Source: Capsaspora owczarzaki ATCC 30864 (Eukaryota; Opisthokonta; Filasterea). From it: a stretch of 64,000 nucleotides of DNA. The number at the start of each line of letters is the position of its first letter. Position 1 is the first letter of the stretch. The notes below the pieces were generated by a model. The model saw only the letters and a list, made by a program, of their open reading frames with translations, ran no database searches and had not been told where the DNA came from. Where the stretch lies: positions 124,001 to 188,000 of the forward strand of contig NW_011887302.1 of the NCBI RefSeq assembly GCF_000151315.2. Reading direction: 5' to 3'. Made by a program: the position numbers and the translations under genes. Below, in pieces: positions 28,577 through 41,158 of this stretch.

Positions 28577-30935
<2,359 letters not shown>

Positions 30936-32663: not shown

Positions 32664-35600
32664 TTAAATCGAACTATCATCGTCGTCGTCAATGCCATGA
32701 AGTGTCATGGGAATGCCGCGTGGCGGGACTGGCGGAGGGATGCGCGGTGGCAAGGCTGGTGGCAAGGCTGGAGGTTGAACGTTCACGTACTCGGAAGCGG
32801 TTGCTGCGGTTGCTGCGGCTGCGCGTGCAGCGGAGGCCTCTTGTGGGCGGACAGAGGAGCGACGCTTGCCTTCGTTGTAACGCGACACGGCAGACATGAT
32901 ATCCTTGGGATGGAGCTGCTGAAGCGCCTTGTTGTTCGAGCGCTGCAGCAGGCGCACCGTGACGGAAGAATCCTCGCGGAACTGCTCCCGGAGTTGTTGG
33001 TTGTGTCGTTCGGCTTCGGCGCGCTCTTCGGGCGTCGAGGCGCGTGCCAGCCTGTCGGCACACGCGCGCTCCATCTGCCGCTCTTGGTCCCGGATGATGA
33101 CCTCGGCCGCATTCATCTGCTTCTCCTGGTGGTTGGCCGCCAGCCGCTCCTTGAGGGTGGACAAGTCGGGCGGGGACTGCGTTTCGGCCAAGTTGCTGCT
33201 CACATGTGGCAACGCGGTCGCCGAACTCTTCATCGTCGAGATGGAGGAAAGCAACGTGCGCAAATGGCGACGCGGGGCAGCCATCGTCGAAGTCGACGTG
33301 CCACCAACCAACACTGACACGGAGCCGCTGCTCTGGGACTGACTGGAGGCGAGCGACATGTCGCGAGAGGAGACGGACGGAAGCGCATTTGTGCTGGTAG
33401 TCGCGACTACTGCAGCAGCCGAAGGTTCGCCGCTGCGACCCACAGAGGCGACCGAGCCTGAGGGACTGAACGAAGTCTGTGAAGTGCTCGGAGACTCTGC
33501 CGGCTCCACGCGTGCACGCACGCCAGCCAGACCTCCGTGAGCGACTTGTTGCCTGCGCTTGGTAGAGTAGGCGCGCAGGAAGGCGTTGGCAGGCAACTCG
33601 GACGTGAGCACTTGCGAGTTCTCGAGCAGCTTGACTGCCGATTTGAGCTCCTGATCGAGATTCGTCGGGCGAGCAGGCATGTTGCGGACGTGGCGGCGCA
33701 GATCGTCGGTAGCAATGTTCTCATACTCGGCGTTGGCGGGTGGTCTGTCGCCAGCGCCGACATTGCCAGAATGACTGCCACCAGCAGCCGCTGCTGTCCT
33801 GGTGTGATGCGCGTGTGCTTCGTTGAGAGCAGCACCCCCGACAGCTGCACTGCCGGCAAGAGCAACCGAGTTGTCTTCGCGGGCCAGCACTCGCTCCAAG
33901 ATGGCAAGATCTGTGTCCTCGCTGGAAGAGTTGATATTTTCCAGAGCATACAGAGCCGCTGCAAACTCGGCGGACAGCGGCGATCCATGAGAGCCATCCG
34001 CACCCAGGGGACTTCCAACAATGGCGCCACTGCTGACAAACCGGCCAGCAGGGGTGATGGAGGCTCCTCGTGTCGCCTCGAGCACAGAGTTTGACGGACG
34101 AGCACCAGGGAAGTGTCCTTCCGTGAGCGCTGATGCGGCATTGCGCATCGTCTGGCCCTGCCAATCTGCGTGGTCCTCGTGGAAAATGGACGGCGCGCGG
34201 CCAGACCTGACCTCGTCGGCAGCGGCGACCGCCGACTCGCGCTGCAAGCTTTGCATCCTGCGTCGGGATTCCTCCTCCGAGAGATGCGCTTCATCACTAA
34301 TCCACCATTGCCTCGGCGATCCGTCGGGATCCTCCTCGGACTCGTGACGGTACGCGCCATTCACCATCGACTTGAAGCTGTCGCGGTTGTGGAAGCGGCT
34401 GCGCACCTTGGTCTTGTTGCGCACAAACGGCACATAGTAGAACAGGTTGTAAAACATGCCAAAGAGGCGGATAAAGACGAGCATCGGCAGCTTGTAGAGC
34501 ACGGGGAACAAGACCATCACCTCGACGGGAACGGCCTTGCGGGCAGGCCAGAGCACAGCCAGGTTGAAGAAGACGTGAATCAACAGTTGAATGGCCCAGC
34601 TCAGCACAAGGCCTCGCAGGAGGTAGATTGGCGTTTGATAGTAGAGGAACACGGCCAGGGTGTAGGCAATCACAGCCCAGTCGTTCAGGATGAGGGCCAA
34701 GTCGTAAATCGCGAGGCAGCGTGCCCACACGCCGCGCCAGCTGTTGATGGAACGCCAGGCAAACAACATTTTGGCGTACTTCCACAAGAAGCGCTGGCGC
34801 GAGACCTCCCAGCCCTTTGCGCGCTGTTGGAAGAGGGACGGCTCGCCGCACTTGCACTTTGCCATGGTCCCACAATGGTCCATCAGCCAAGATGGCAGCA
34901 GATCGCGTGCGTGGAACCAGTGGACGGGAACGTCCGTGGCCACGACAATGGATCCCGCACAATCCACCTTGTACTTGCCAGGATGGACACGCTCGGGGTT
35001 GAGAATCCACGACTTGCCGGCCAACGAGTGCAGCAGCAAGCCCTGTTGCAGGTCGTCGCCGTGATGCATCGTGTCATGGCGGAAGAGAATGTCGACAATG
35101 TACTCGACGCGCCAGGTATTGAAGGCTCCAGATGCAAACAGGGTGGTGCCGAGCTTGGCCTGGACAATCTTCATGTAGCCAGCGAGCAGATACTCAAAGT
35201 GTTCCAGGTGGGCAAGCGTGTGCGTTTGGTTGCGTGCCTCCAGCGGATAGGCAAGACACTTGACGGCCGCGTTGCGCTCAAAGTAGGCAATCACCTCTTC
35301 TTCGCTCCAGGATGCCGGCACAACAGTGTCGTCGTCAATCATGGTGACATAGTCGATGCGGCGGTCAAAGCGGAGCAGGTTGAAGACGGACGCAAACTGG
35401 GCGACCGTCTTGGACCCTTCGCGCAGCGTGCCAAAGTTGATGGGGTGGCCGGCATATCCGGGATGGCTGCGGTTGTAGTCGAGGGACAGCTGCTTGCATG
35501 CCTCCGCCGTGCTCGTCACTTGCTCGGGAGACGAGCCGTTGTCTGCAACAAAGACCTGCCAAGGTTCGCTGCGCAAGAGAATGTTCTCAATGGTCATGTG

Positions 35601-38600
35601 GATCTTGGTGGAGCTGTTGTGGCATGCAATGATGAATGCGTGTCCTCCGCGGTGGATGCCGTCGTACTTTTTGGTTCGTGCCACCGCGGCACTGACCACG
35701 TCCTCCTTGCAGCACGGAGGCAGATCCTTGCCTTCGGGTACGACCAGGAGCGGTGCAGGCATGAGGTGCTGCGGGAGGGCCGGAGTCTCGGACGAGGTGG
35801 AGGCTCGCGCAGATTCGGAGGCGCTAGTTGCTTCCATGCTTGTAAAGTCGGTGCTTCTGCTATAGGAAGGGTCGACCTGGGAAGGGACGGCCAGACGCGA
35901 TTGCTGCTGAGTCATTTCTGACGTGCCTTGGACGCCACGCGACCTGCGATGCGGCGAGGCGACAGCAAGTTCTGCAGCGCGACGAATGGCTTCTGCTGGC
36001 GCATCAACTGGCTGGAATTGACGATGCTGGAGGCGGGGAGAGCCGACACGCGACTGGATGCCCTGCGGCTGCGCTGCATCGCCATCGTCAGAGTGGATGG
36101 ACGAGGCGGACGAACCGACAGCCGAATCCGGGTGCGGGAGGGCATGGTGGTGAGAATGCTGCTGGTGGCGCAGCAGTTGCTGTTGCTGGGCAAACAGCTC
36201 GGCAGGCGGCAAAATTGGCGGAACGGGAATAATGTGCTTGCGCGGCCATCGGATGAAGATGCAGAACAGCGCCAAAAACACAGCGTCCCAGTTCAGCAGC
36301 ACCATGTAGATGCCAAATTCCCACTCCGTGCGACCTGCATCGTCGGCATCCACGTCGGAAGCAACGTCGTACGCCAGCGTGTAGGGATCCTGCTCGCGGA
36401 CAATCCCAAACAAGATGAACGCCGCGGCGAGTGCCGCAAACAAGACAAACGCAAAGAATTGAATGTAGCCAATGCCAGGGTGGGTCTGCTTGAACTTGCG
36501 GCCCGTAAGGCACGGCACCAAGCGCGACACAAGCGGACGAACGACACCGGCAATGAACAGCATGGCCAACAGGAAGAGCGAGCCGTAGGTCATCAGGTAC
36601 ACAAAGACAAGTCGCATCCACCCTGGGCCCGGGACGACAGGGCACTCGCAGTGCATCGGGATTGTCGTTTGGATGCGGTTGGACTCGTCGAGCAACCCTC
36701 GTGCATTGTAGAATGCCTGGGCAGCGAACGCGGCTGTTGGCTTGAAGCGCTCGCAAAAGCACGGCTTGTTCCAGGTGCCGAAGCGGTACTTGGCCGGCGG
36801 TAGGCTCTGCTGATTGACAACGAGCTGCACCGAGATTTCGCCAGGCTCTTCCGTTTCCAAGGCGTGTTCTTGCATGCCAGTGCCCTTGCCCGTCAGGACG
36901 GAGACGACGCTCTTGGACGGATCGATAAAGCCGAGCATCGACCACGGCAAGGACACTTCCAAGGTGCTGCCAACCGCATGCCAGCGATTCATGCTGGAGG
37001 CCAAGGCGTCGTCGGCGGGAGCGTACAAGTAGTTGATGCCGCGCTGGAGACGGCCCAAGTCCGTCACGACGTGGTCGACGGCCGTAAACGAGCCAGACAC
37101 GCTCGGGTCGGCCAGGTACGTGCGCTTACGCGTGAGCGAGCGAATGAGCGAAAAGTAGCCGAGTCGCGAGTCATCTTGACCAGCGCTGGCGGCGGGCAGG
37201 TCGTAGTACGGAGCGTCGGCAATCAAGGGACCGCGTTGGTAGGCATCCAAGTTGTCGTTCACATAGACGTTCAGCTGCCACTCATTCGAGTTGGCTGCCG
37301 AAGCGTCAAAGTTGACGAGATAGTCGGCGGGAATGTTGTAGGAGACCATGCCCGACGCGGGACCGTAAAAGATCTGGGACGTGACCGCGCCCTTGCCCGG
37401 AACAGTGTCAAAGGCAATCCAGAGGGAGTCACCAGGCTGGAAGTCGCTGCTCTTCTCGACGAGCAAAAAGAGTTGCGAGGCGTCAAATTGGGCGCACATG
37501 GACTTGAATCCGACAGCAGTGCCTGACGATCCCAGCATGTTGGTGCAATTGGACCACTCGGAGCTGGTCGATTGGCGGTTGCCATCAATGATGATTGAGC
37601 TCGGAGAGCTTGCGGCAACGAGACCAGTGTTACTTGAGGCAGAGAGCATGTTCAGCCAGGCCTCTGGATGGGATGTGGCATCCTCAGAGTTCCAAGTCGT
37701 CTTGAACCACTCATCAACGAGTTCAAACAGGACGACACCATTGAGCCCGGCGGCTTGAATGAGCTTGATCAGGTTGGCAATCTCCGTACCAGCGCTCTGC
37801 TCATCGATGCCGCCAGAGTTGCGGTTGAGCGAGGCGTCAATGCGAGCGGTGAGGATGCCCGTCGAAATGTCGAGACTCGAGACAATCAGCGGCGCTGACG
37901 GGTAGCGTTGGCGGAGGGTGACAATGTAGGCTGCGTAAGGATCGCTGTTGACGTTTACGCCGGCGGGTGCGTTGGAGGGAATTTCCGAGGCTGGGGTTGG
38001 AGCAATCCCGGCAAGAAAATCGGGGAAACCCGGCTGCACGTCAAAGCTGTAAAACATGCCTGCATAAAAGCCCACGCGGGTGGGGTCGGGCGGCGAGACG
38101 ACAATGTTGGCAGCCTCGATCGACTGCCAGTCATTCTCCGAGTAAGGATAGCCGGGGTCGAGTGCATGCGTCATGGGATCGGTCTCAACAGCGTTCGCGA
38201 TGCCGATCGGGCGCTGCCAACCGCGCTTGGTGTCTTCGGCAGCAAGAATGTCAACCATATAGGCAATCCAGCACTCAAAGGGCGATGCTGCAGTCGTGCA
38301 CGAAAAGAACTGGCCATTGTAACGCGGGACGTTGGCGTTGGCGCCATTGGTCTTGGCAATGTCGGCGGGTGTCCAAGTGCTTCCGAAAATCCAACCAATG
38401 AGATAGGGAGAAATGTTGTACGTGAACTCGCCCGAAATCTTGCGACCGTAGGGGGCCTCTCCTGCGCCATAGACGGCCCGAACGGCGTCCGTGATGGCCT
38501 TGCGCACAATGTTGGTCGAGGCGGGGAGGAACATGTTGATGGACTGGCTCGTTCCAGAGCCCGTGGTAGCTGCCGAGATCTCGTCCGTCAGGTCGTAGCC

Positions 38601-39287
38601 CCAGACTGTCTGCATGACATACAGTGGGGTGATGACGGTCGATTCATTGAGCGGGAAGGGCCTGAAGGCGGTGGCAGCGGATGGAAAGCCGAACGCTGCC
38701 CGATTGTGCTCGTACAAGGCTTGGTAGAAGACAGGCGGCATGATGGAGTAGACGCGAATGACGTTGGCACCCAGAGTGGAGGCGTACCGCATGAATCGGC
38801 GAAAATCATTCAGATTGGCAGCACCGTCGCCCGGCTCGTAGCCTGGCTTGGACGAGCCCATGTTGACTCCAGCAAGGAAGCCGAGATCCACGAGCTGAAA
38901 GTTTGCATCCAGCACATCGAATCCGGGAGCGTTCGCCGTGGCCTGCACGCGAGCAGCGAGCGAAACGGACACTTGGTTGCCAAGCTTCTCAACATCGTAG
39001 CTGATGGTGCTCACGTTGAGTGCACCGCGCCGCATGCCAGCACCACCGGCATTCCGACGTGCTGTCTGCGCAAGGGCATCCAGAGGGAGAAGCGAGTCGT
39101 GCACAACCTTGTTGTTGACCATGGTTTTGCCATTCGCCTGAGCCATGACAAACTGGTTTTGCGGCCAGCCGTGCTGCTCAAATTGGCGTTGGTGCGAAGG
39201 GTTGAAGAGCGGCGCTGGTTGTGGTAGCTCCTCGGCCACCGCGCTCAGACTGGCGGCGACGAGCAACCAAAATGCAACCAAACGCAT
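32664..39287 (-). CDS. Glycosidase-like ectodomain fused to processive GT2 glycosyltransferase
   Basis: One exon of 2207 codons. A signal peptide (MRLVAFWLLVAASLSA) leads a lumenal TIM-barrel glycoside-hydrolase-like domain (~60-590). It carries LGANVIRVYS, YLIGWIFGS and VVLFELVDEWFKTTW near residue 522, the last a likely catalytic acidic strand. A beta-sandwich resembling CBM9/DOMON modules follows (SLPWSMLGFIDPS). Three membrane helices (~890-1020) lead to a cytosolic GT-A domain of family 2: FIIACHNSS, FVADNGSS, MIDDDTVV (metal site, ~1314), FASGAFNTWR, HGDDLQQG (~1407), and QQRAKGW (~1490), a Q-x-x-R-W-like processive motif. Four to five further helices form a polysaccharide channel. The last ~600 residues are a Ser-rich cytoplasmic tail. 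Prediction: synthesises and exports a polysaccharide that the ectodomain trims or transfers. The polymer is unknown. ATG 39317 is an alternative start. Confidence 0.85.
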   Translation of the reverse strand: MRLVAFWLLVAASLSAVAEELPQPAPLFNPSHQRQFEQHGWPQNQFVMAQANGKTMVNNKVVHDSLLPLDALAQTARRNAGGAGMRRGALNVSTISYDVEKLGNQVSVSLAARVQATANAPGFDVLDANFQLVDLGFLAGVNMGSSKPGYEPGDGAANLNDFRRFMRYASTLGANVIRVYSIMPPVFYQALYEHNRAAFGFPSAATAFRPFPLNESTVITPLYVMQTVWGYDLTDEISAATTGSGTSQSINMFLPASTNIVRKAITDAVRAVYGAGEAPYGRKISGEFTYNISPYLIGWIFGSTWTPADIAKTNGANANVPRYNGQFFSCTTAASPFECWIAYMVDILAAEDTKRGWQRPIGIANAVETDPMTHALDPGYPYSENDWQSIEAANIVVSPPDPTRVGFYAGMFYSFDVQPGFPDFLAGIAPTPASEIPSNAPAGVNVNSDPYAAYIVTLRQRYPSAPLIVSSLDISTGILTARIDASLNRNSGGIDEQSAGTEIANLIKLIQAAGLNGVVLFELVDEWFKTTWNSEDATSHPEAWLNMLSASSNTGLVAASSPSSIIIDGNRQSTSSEWSNCTNMLGSSGTAVGFKSMCAQFDASQLFLLVEKSSDFQPGDSLWIAFDTVPGKGAVTSQIFYGPASGMVSYNIPADYLVNFDASAANSNEWQLNVYVNDNLDAYQRGPLIADAPYYDLPAASAGQDDSRLGYFSLIRSLTRKRTYLADPSVSGSFTAVDHVVTDLGRLQRGINYLYAPADDALASSMNRWHAVGSTLEVSLPWSMLGFIDPSKSVVSVLTGKGTGMQEHALETEEPGEISVQLVVNQQSLPPAKYRFGTWNKPCFCERFKPTAAFAAQAFYNARGLLDESNRIQTTIPMHCECPVVPGPGWMRLVFVYLMTYGSLFLLAMLFIAGVVRPLVSRLVPCLTGRKFKQTHPGIGYIQFFAFVLFAALAAAFILFGIVREQDPYTLAYDVASDVDADDAGRTEWEFGIYMVLLNWDAVFLALFCIFIRWPRKHIIPVPPILPPAELFAQQQQLLRHQQHSHHHALPHPDSAVGSSASSIHSDDGDAAQPQGIQSRVGSPRLQHRQFQPVDAPAEAIRRAAELAVASPHRRSRGVQGTSEMTQQQSRLAVPSQVDPSYSRSTDFTSMEATSASESARASTSSETPALPQHLMPAPLLVVPEGKDLPPCCKEDVVSAAVARTKKYDGIHRGGHAFIIACHNSSTKIHMTIENILLRSEPWQVFVADNGSSPEQVTSTAEACKQLSLDYNRSHPGYAGHPINFGTLREGSKTVAQFASVFNLLRFDRRIDYVTMIDDDTVVPASWSEEEVIAYFERNAAVKCLAYPLEARNQTHTLAHLEHFEYLLAGYMKIVQAKLGTTLFASGAFNTWRVEYIVDILFRHDTMHHGDDLQQGLLLHSLAGKSWILNPERVHPGKYKVDCAGSIVVATDVPVHWFHARDLLPSWLMDHCGTMAKCKCGEPSLFQQRAKGWEVSRQRFLWKYAKMLFAWRSINSWRGVWARCLAIYDLALILNDWAVIAYTLAVFLYYQTPIYLLRGLVLSWAIQLLIHVFFNLAVLWPARKAVPVEVMVLFPVLYKLPMLVFIRLFGMFYNLFYYVPFVRNKTKVRSRFHNRDSFKSMVNGAYRHESEEDPDGSPRQWWISDEAHLSEEESRRRMQSLQRESAVAAADEVRSGRAPSIFHEDHADWQGQTMRNAASALTEGHFPGARPSNSVLEATRGASITPAGRFVSSGAIVGSPLGADGSHGSPLSAEFAAALYALENINSSSEDTDLAILERVLAREDNSVALAGSAAVGGAALNEAHAHHTRTAAAAGGSHSGNVGAGDRPPANAEYENIATDDLRRHVRNMPARPTNLDQELKSAVKLLENSQVLTSELPANAFLRAYSTKRRQQVAHGGLAGVRARVEPAESPSTSQTSFSPSGSVASVGRSGEPSAAAVVATTSTNALPSVSSRDMSLASSQSQSSGSVSVLVGGTSTSTMAAPRRHLRTLLSSISTMKSSATALPHVSSNLAETQSPPDLSTLKERLAANHQEKQMNAAEVIIRDQERQMERACADRLARASTPEERAEAERHNQQLREQFREDSSVTVRLLQRSNNKALQQLHPKDIMSAVSRYNEGKRRSSVRPQEASAARAAAATAATASEYVNVQPPALPPALPPRIPPPVPPRGIPMTLHGIDDDDDSSI

Positions 39288-41158
39288 TGTGGTCGAGCGA
39301 GCTGCCGCTGGGCGCATTGGGATGGAAGAAAAGGGAGGGGCGCAATGCGAGCGAGATAAACAAACAACCTGTTGATGCCGTGTCAGCGTGAGTATATTCA
39401 AGTCGAGCGAGGATGCAAAGAGTCGCTTGGTGCGATCTTTCGGTGGCTGTCCGAGGAAGGAGCACCAACCACACAAAGAACGAACAAAAACCGAGCGCCG
39501 AGCAAAGGAGGACTAGAAGATATGAGGTGGGGAGGAACTTGAAACAAAAAAAACAACAAAAACAAAAAAAAAAAAAAAAAAAAAAAACAAGAACGCCAAC
39601 ACGGTAATCGCCCTCTCGACTTTCGCCTCCGCCCTTCGACTTCCATGGCGGAAGCGAGACCTGGAGTGGTTTGCAATCCATGCAGGATCATCTCAAGGTG
39701 GGAGATCAACAGCACCGCAATCGCACCCAAAAGAAAATTGCTGCGAACGCGAAAAAAAAAAAAAAAAAAGACGTGTCTTTCCAACTTGATGATCGATCAC
39801 AAACTCCTCCAAGAAACCGCCGAATGGGGTATCTCGCGAAAAGGGTAGCGTCCATCGTCAAAAAGCGAATGGGAAACGGTTTGACGTCGATGCAGCATGA
39901 TGCATCGCTCTGCACACACTCACAAGCGACCATTGCATCGACTCGGGCAAAAGAGGGCGGGGCCTTTTGGAAGCGAAAGCAATTCTTAGCAAGATGCCGG
40001 CTTTCGTTGCCGCGGTCCTCGCGGGCATGCACAAAAATCGCTGAAACCGCTGCGTTTTTGACATTGTCAAGAAGGCCAGGCGGTTGCTGTTGTGGTGCTC
40101 TCTCGACCCGCTGCGTGCTTCCCCGCGCGACGACTTCAACTTCTCGCTTGCTGCACTCCCTCAGATGCATCGACCCCTTTGCACACAAGACCAAAGAAAC
40201 AAGCCACGTCTTTGTGCAAAACGGTGTGCCGAAATGGTACCCGAGTTGGTCCTTCCTCACCTCTAAAACTCGCCAACAAGATGGGACCCAGGGAATGAAT
40301 CTGAGTTGAGCGGACTACACGTCAATGCACGAGTGATCTTGCGCAAGAGTCCAATAAATAGACAATGAGATGAAGAACAAGACGAAGATGAACACGAAGA
40401 TGAACACGAAGAAACAACAGAAAAAAAAAAAAAAAAAAAAGTAGAACTGAACCGATGATGGCAAATCGAAACAACTTGTCAAAGTCGGAAGTGGCCAATT
40501 TATTATTTTTTCTGTTGTATTTTTGTGAAATTTTTTTTTTTTTTTTTTCTGTTGTATTTTTGTGATTTTTTTTTTTTTTTTTTCGGTTTCGGTACGAAAT
40601 CTGGCCGCTAAGCCGTGTTGTTGGCCACCATTTGGCACAACATGTGGGAAAAATCGCACCAATCCAGTCGTTTTATCATGCGTAGTCAAGATTATTTCGA
40701 ATGTGTGAAATTCGCTTTTGGGATGGTAGGGGCTCGTTTGAGGCAGGAGGCGGAGGGGGAGAGAGGGGGGAACACAAAATCGATTCTCGTTTGGCAACTT
40801 GTCAACAAATACTAGTACGAACAGATACGAACAAGTCGACAAGTGGTTGCTGCTACGACGCTTCCCTGTGTGCATCTACAGCGGTGTCAAGGCGTGTAGG
40901 ATGAAGGGAAGGTGGCGTCACTGCTCGTAGACGCGAACGGACGCTCTATCTGCGCAAGTAGGACAAGGATCCAAAGCCACACCTTCGATCGCATTTTTTG
41001 AAAAGCCCCCCTCCTCCAAAAATGTATTCACGCCGTTACAATGTGCGTCTTGATGGATCGGATCGATTGCTCAACAGAGGTAAAAAGGCAACTGAGTAGT
41101 ACGAACAGACACCGCACATCGGCACACACACACACACACACAAACTTGGACACGACTC
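39288..41158. other. Intergenic region, A/T tracts only
   Basis: 1.9 kb between the GT2-fusion start and the ACSF2-like gene's 3' end. It contains poly(A)/poly(T) runs (39566-39587, 39752-39769, 40421-40441). Two near-identical copies of a TTTTCTGTTGTATTTTTGTG-type unit lie at about 40508-40566, and a GAAGATGAACAC repeat at about 40384-40412. No supported gene on either strand. Confidence 0.55.

Follow-up and report, generated by a model that had tools for sequence, protein, structure and literature searches.

We found that a gene of the unicellular animal relative Capsaspora owczarzaki ATCC 30864 probably encodes a membrane polysaccharide synthase of glycosyltransferase family 2 (GT2) joined to a secreted, non-catalytic head that binds the polysaccharide chain, and that a paralog in the same genome is probably the catalytic version of this protein. 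We give this reading a probability of about 0.58. The gene lies in a stretch of 64,000 nucleotides (contig NW_011887302.1, positions 124,001 to 188,000), here called the window; all coordinates without another label are those of the window. The stop-free frame has 2270 codons (32664-39476, minus strand), 2207 of them counted from the ATG at 39287. It unites an ectodomain, helices, a GT2 domain and a tail, and we consider this fused frame confirmed. Chance is excluded because the GT2 domain matches PF13641, the ectodomain has bacterial relatives (E 3e-51), and there is a paralog with the identical domain order.

We found the paralog, on contig C8, by searching the genome for GT2 genes. It has 1805 amino acids, is 40% identical to the window protein overall and 61% identical in the GT region, and carries, in one frame, a hydrophobic start, the ectodomain, three helices, the GT2 domain, further helices and a tail. 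A search of the genome with the ectodomain found only these two genes. The low-complexity linker at residues 1016-1205 would suit an annotation artefact, that is, two adjacent genes read through as one frame. However, the paralog, on another contig and at 40% identity, keeps a single frame over ectodomain, helices and GT2, and the joining region itself (around residues 840-1015) is conserved between the two proteins. That two diverged genes both keep the joined frame is our best evidence for a single protein, and we regard an artefact as very improbable.

An earlier note on this DNA, made from the letters alone, had described a single frame with a signal peptide, named helices and motifs, and a long Ser-rich tail. 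We located all of these: the frame runs for 2207 codons without a stop, its start is signal-peptide-like by hydropathy, the three helices lie where Table 1 places them, and DDD, HGDD and QQRAKGW are at residues 1318-1320, 1409-1412 and 1487-1493. The tail has about 580 residues, and Ser makes up 13.4% of residues 1640-2207; phosphoregulation, which the note proposed from this composition, may apply.

Relatives of the ectodomain are encoded in at least 585 bacterial stretches; one tblastn match has E 3e-51 over residues 137-851, at 27.5% identity. We compared 83 bacterial loci. Eighty are genome loci, the best 80 of the at least 585 relatives, and biased to the Paenibacillus query; two loci (L007 and L010) come from one species and have identical or near-identical genes, so the 83 include one duplicate. 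The loci held 119 ectodomain frames at E 1e-5 and 117 at E 1e-10, which gave 115 domains after two short ones from one locus (L062) were dropped. In a tree of the ectodomains the two eukaryotic proteins group together (support 99) on a long branch, within a set that contains Deinococcus and second-type Bacillota copies. Because the placement of long rows in the tree is unsure, we make no claim on the direction of gene transfer.

The ectodomain contains a predicted barrel of the glycosidase clan GH-A. The predicted structure has the glycosidase-like TIM barrel that had been proposed from the sequence. Residues ~565-845, putatively CBM-like in the earlier note, are beta-rich in the same model, and the ERFK helix that follows (residues 850-862) may complete the barrel. 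In sequence searches, neither the ectodomain of the window protein (P0001) nor its Paenibacillus relative had a significant match in Pfam, NCBIfam or the PDB. Pfam searched with P0001 at E up to 5 returned two GT2 families and one insignificant match, and nothing else. When 30 family members were compared to Pfam, the matches were weak: GH113 in 3 of 30 (best E 0.0046), GH72 in one (0.019), Nakanori in one (0.001), and others. NCBIfam gave a sorting-signal model in 1 of the 30 only. GH17 had no match in P0001 (E up to 5), nor was it among the families matched by the 30 members (E up to 0.1).

Glycosidases of clan GH-A carry their acid/base Glu after strand 4 and their nucleophile Glu after strand 7. 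In the predicted model of the window protein these strands are residues 296-301 and 467-472. We compared the corresponding alignment columns. The strand-4 column is Glu in 99 of 115 bacterial domains and the strand-7 column in 103 of 115; 99 of 115 have both, and 82 of the 83 loci encode at least one domain with both. The paralog retains both (Glu223 and Glu379). In contrast, the window protein has Thr304 and Ser471. The ectodomain of one Planococcus locus (L009) has the identical Thr/Ser pair. In addition, 15 of 83 loci pair a domain that has both Glu with one that lacks at least one of them; in four of those 15 (L007, L010, L011 and L012) the sole change is Asp at the first position. This pairing is like that of the two Capsaspora genes.

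The loss extends beyond the two catalytic positions. We scored columns that are conserved among the 99 bacterial rows having both Glu. Of 70 barrel columns conserved at 95% or more, the window protein has kept 41 and the paralog 58; of 13 such columns in the second part of the ectodomain, the window protein has kept 10 and the paralog 9. At 90% conservation the numbers were 53 and 76 of 93 columns in the barrel, and 17 and 17 of 26 in the second part. Besides both Glu, the window protein has lost 20 barrel residues (conserved at 95% or more) that the paralog retains. Thus, decay is concentrated in the barrel. The barrel of the window protein seems, from the alignment, to have lost its cutting chemistry, and the paralog is likely, on the same grounds, to be the trimming or transferring version.

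The bacterial ectodomain genes usually have the same neighbors. A HEAT-repeat gene and a GT2 gene accompany the ectodomain gene in 65 of 83 loci, and a GT2 gene alone in two. Detection of these genes, and of those for GGDEF domains, relied on similarity to one or a few examples and may have missed some. No more than 400 bases separate HEAT and GT2 genes on one strand in 64 loci, the ectodomain gene is within 400 bases of one or the other in 56, and the set is contiguous throughout in 55. Natural fusions join ectodomain to HEAT in one locus (L082) and HEAT to GT2 in another (L025); no fusion of ectodomain to GT2 was detected among the 83. GGDEF domains are present in 35 of 83 loci (in 27 within 2.5 kb and on the same strand), histidine kinases in 32 and HD domains in 17. 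Examples include a GGDEF domain with receiver and Hpt domains, a histidine kinase, or an HD domain. We infer that the ectodomain-HEAT-GT2 set, found mostly in Bacillota, is an uncharacterized exopolysaccharide synthase system, possibly linked to cyclic-di-GMP. Given the HEAT and GT2 genes in 65 loci and GGDEF in 35, the Capsaspora gene unites what bacteria encode separately as a likely exopolysaccharide synthase system. HEAT had no match in P0001 or P0002; no search was made for a HEAT gene at another place in the genome. We found no description of this protein or of the bacterial gene set within openly licensed papers.

The GT2 domain matches PF13641 at residues 1217-1420 (E 2e-7, above the curated cut-off) and PF00535 (E 6e-5). 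DxD, TED/GED-type and QxxRW are the motif names used for processive GT2 synthases. DDD and HGDD of the window protein line up with DAD and GED of the bacterial operon GT2s. A profile comparison with those GT2s (hhalign, 245 columns, E 5e-6) matches the SGAF, GDD/GED and Q..W blocks, and the operon profile in turn matches chondroitin, cellulose, hyaluronan and chitin synthases. Judged by profile, the window GT2 may be a remote relative of the bacterial ones, and the fusion may have taken up either the operon's own GT2 or a different one. In searches made without a positive control, the GT part had no relative among viral contigs, nothing related in the PDB, and no match in 8 bacterial genomes or in 299 genomes of the phylum of the Paenibacillus genome; the ectodomain as query matched 17 of those 299. 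By hydropathy, the three helices ahead of the GT domain would carry the polypeptide from outside to inside, with basic residues flanking their inner sides. The GT domain is followed by three clear hydrophobic segments, an odd count, also by hydropathy. The basic stretch RNKTKVRSRF after the last helix favors a tail on the inside.

We propose that the cytosolic GT2 domain would polymerize a nucleotide sugar and feed the growing chain through its own membrane helices, and that the outside head, the GH-A barrel with its beta-rich part, would meet the chain as it emerges. Because its barrel has lost both predicted catalytic Glu, the head of the window protein most likely does not cut the chain but binds, guides or scaffolds it; the head of the paralog would trim or transfer the chain. 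Polymerizing activity, export and chain binding, as well as the identity of the polymer and whatever the two paralogs may do together, are what we infer for this system. Several observations weigh against the proposal. The catalytic positions were set by strand order and alignment, not by a solved relative. The usual QxxRW motif is altered: QQRAKGW (LQRGKGW in the paralog) aligns with QRRRW, with residues and spacing changed. The profile match to the operon GT2s has a probability of 86% only, phmmer of the window GT2 against them found no match at E 1e-3, and blastp against the Deinococcus operon GT2 was weak (E 0.037). The operon profile also matches solved GT2s that are not polymer-forming, SpsA and dolichol-phosphate mannose synthase among them, and the predicted model of the GT domain was too poor for use (pLDDT, the predicted local distance difference test score, 45.7). 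Finally, in 18 of 83 loci the HEAT gene, the GT2 gene or both went undetected (neither was found in 16, some of them short contigs).

Conceivably, the barrel is active by means of other acidic residues, those of DEW for example, and a single polypeptide would synthesize and export the chain and also trim or transfer it. The barrel fold is kept in the predicted model, the paralog keeps both Glu, and the acidic strand ELVDEWFK singled out in the earlier note is indeed present (residues 522-529) and conserved: across the bacterial domains, the D of DEW is found in 115 of 115, the E in 103 and the W in 114. However, this motif comes just past strand 8, at a distance from the catalytic pair, and the window protein has lost the Glu after strands 4 and 7 together with 20 conserved barrel residues that the paralog has kept. 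We therefore consider the trimming or transfer outside the cell that had been suggested for this protein unlikely, since Thr304 and Ser471 stand where the paralog keeps both Glu, and an active barrel of this kind improbable.

The GT2 domain could also be a non-polymerase that decorates a lipid or protein with a single sugar or a few, with the head acting on a surface glycoconjugate. The divergence of the domain, in which GDD and QQRAKGW replace the usual motifs, would fit such an enzyme, as would the lack of a close solved relative and the matches of the operon profile to non-polymerizing enzymes. In contrast, helices flank the GT domain on both sides, and its SGAF and Q..W blocks align with those of the operon GT2s, and the profile of the latter recognizes cellulose, hyaluronan and chitin synthases. 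In addition, the relatives of the ectodomain adjoin such GT2s, and GGDEF domains occur in their loci as counted above. We consider an enzyme of this sort unlikely, if less so than an active barrel, and favor the synthase with a chain-binding head.

Table 1. Features of the synthase gene, in window coordinates.
Feature	Position	Strand	Basis or remark
Whole coding frame P0001	32664..39287	minus	2207 aa; alternative ATG at 39317 adds 10 aa
Signal-peptide-like N-terminus, residues 1-19	39231..39287	minus	hydropathy
Clan GH-A-like TIM barrel, about residues 120-560	37608..38930	minus	
Thr304, predicted acid/base position after strand 4	38376..38378	minus	alignment and model strands
Ser471, predicted nucleophile position, end of strand 7	37875..37877	minus	alignment and model strands
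Conserved DEW motif, residues 525-527, after strand 8	37707..37715	minus	
Beta-rich second ectodomain part, about residues 565-845, then conserved ERFK helix (850-862)	36753..37595	minus	
Three hydrophobic helices, residues 894-912, 945-963, 993-1011	36255..36608	minus	hydropathy; paralog has them too
Low-complexity linker, residues 1016-1205	35673..36242	minus	mostly missing from paralog
GT2 domain, about residues 1214-1515, with DDD, HGDD, QQRAKGW	34743..35648	minus	PF13641 2e-7, PF00535 6e-5; profile match to bacterial operon GT2s E 5e-6
Post-GT hydrophobic segments, residues 1530-1606	34470..34700	minus	hydropathy
Ser/Ala-rich tail, about residues 1625-2207	32664..34415	minus	short blocks common to paralog

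Ten other frames of the window were scanned, and nine had a Pfam match, including polynucleotide kinase 3'-phosphatase, PAN2, peroxin-3, NAT10 and CENP-I. Based on these families, the contig is eukaryotic. The assembly, of 27.5 Mb in 29 contigs, has six integrin-beta matches spread over four contigs, as would suit a holozoan. A gene of the nucleotide-sugar epimerase/dehydratase type (28739-29836, minus strand) lies a few kb from the synthase gene; the peroxin-3 gene separates the two. Elsewhere in the genome there is a chitin-synthase-type match (PF03142; G000:C4:1800033-1800416, minus strand) within a frame of 2114 codons, and there are three more GT2-type matches (L003, L004 and L005), one of them in a frame of 1043 codons. 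Glucan synthase PF02364 had no match in the genome, in a search made without a positive control.

We also noted several features of the bacterial loci. The HEAT-GT2 fusion (L025:1293-5429, minus strand; 1378 aa) has ~500 extra residues that no Pfam family matches at E 0.001. In the Planococcus locus, VTC-domain, DUF4956 and CotH genes precede the set (L009:2940-5796). Small proteins with a similar WLW-containing stretch are encoded near ectodomain genes in three loci (L012:7982-8878; L007:6517-7614; L017:14723-15619, minus strand); those of L012 and L017 had no Pfam match at E 0.01.

An unnamed barrel family that lies beside GT2 genes in many Bacillota is now tied to a likely polysaccharide synthase of a holozoan, and the function of each side can therefore be tested through the other. 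The two Capsaspora proteins are a natural pair, with catalytic-type and pseudo-catalytic heads on similar synthases, that bears on what an outside glycosidase does for a synthase. They are also candidates for making matrix polysaccharide in a lineage close to where animals arose. More tentatively, and with considerable doubt, a cyclic-di-GMP-linked exopolysaccharide module of bacteria may have become a single-polypeptide synthase in this unicellular relative of animals and then duplicated into cooperating catalytic and pseudoglycosidase copies. The dead head would guide or measure the chain and the live head would trim it, building a cell coat or aggregation matrix.

The bacterial ectodomain-HEAT-GT2 set resembles the Capsaspora protein in having an ectodomain homologous over its length and a GT2 partner. 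It differs in that its genes are separate, it includes a HEAT-repeat protein and, in some loci, GGDEF, and its GT2 is only remotely similar to that of the window. Clostridial cellulose synthase and CcsZ are reportedly encoded as separate genes as well. They likewise combine a polysaccharide synthase with a cognate glycosyl hydrolase (PMC7710045). The choanoflagellate glycosyltransferases Jumble and Couscous have a different layout, as far as passages of PMC6322860 describe them.

The earlier note had held the layout to be unlike that of hyaluronan, chitin and cellulose synthases. As a sign of novelty this does not stand: one-polypeptide parallels are described in passages of PMC10237404 and PMC5753165. 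The Pseudomonas BcsA-like Orphan/NdvB protein joins a periplasmic GH17 domain to a GT2 and has been proposed to make and cyclize beta-glucan, in a model of synthesis, export and outside processing (PMC10237404, in part). Like the Capsaspora protein, it has a signal peptide, a secreted barrel, helices and a cytosolic GT2 in one polypeptide (PMC10237404; secretion in Capsaspora judged by hydropathy). Unlike that GH17 barrel, as the same passages present it, the Capsaspora barrel has no GH17 match, and the protein has an extra beta-rich part, a long tail, and neither of the predicted catalytic Glu (PMC10237404). Among eukaryotes, the fungal alpha-1,3-glucan synthase Ags1/AgsB has a similar one-polypeptide layout: a signal peptide, an extracellular glycosidase-type domain, a transmembrane region, an intracellular synthase part with a Ser-rich region, and a multi-helix domain (PMC5753165, in part). 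In contrast to the Capsaspora protein, Ags1 has an outside domain that resembles GH13, and its synthase domain resembles glycogen and starch synthases rather than GT2, according to the same excerpts (PMC5753165). An Ags1-type identity for P0001 was rejected, as GH13 and glycogen-synthase-type domains are absent from its Pfam matches (E up to 5). Based on the Orphan/NdvB and Ags1 parallels, the layout is known in kind. The differences lie in the barrel family, in the relatives that this barrel has in bacterial operons, and in the pair of catalytic and degenerate copies.

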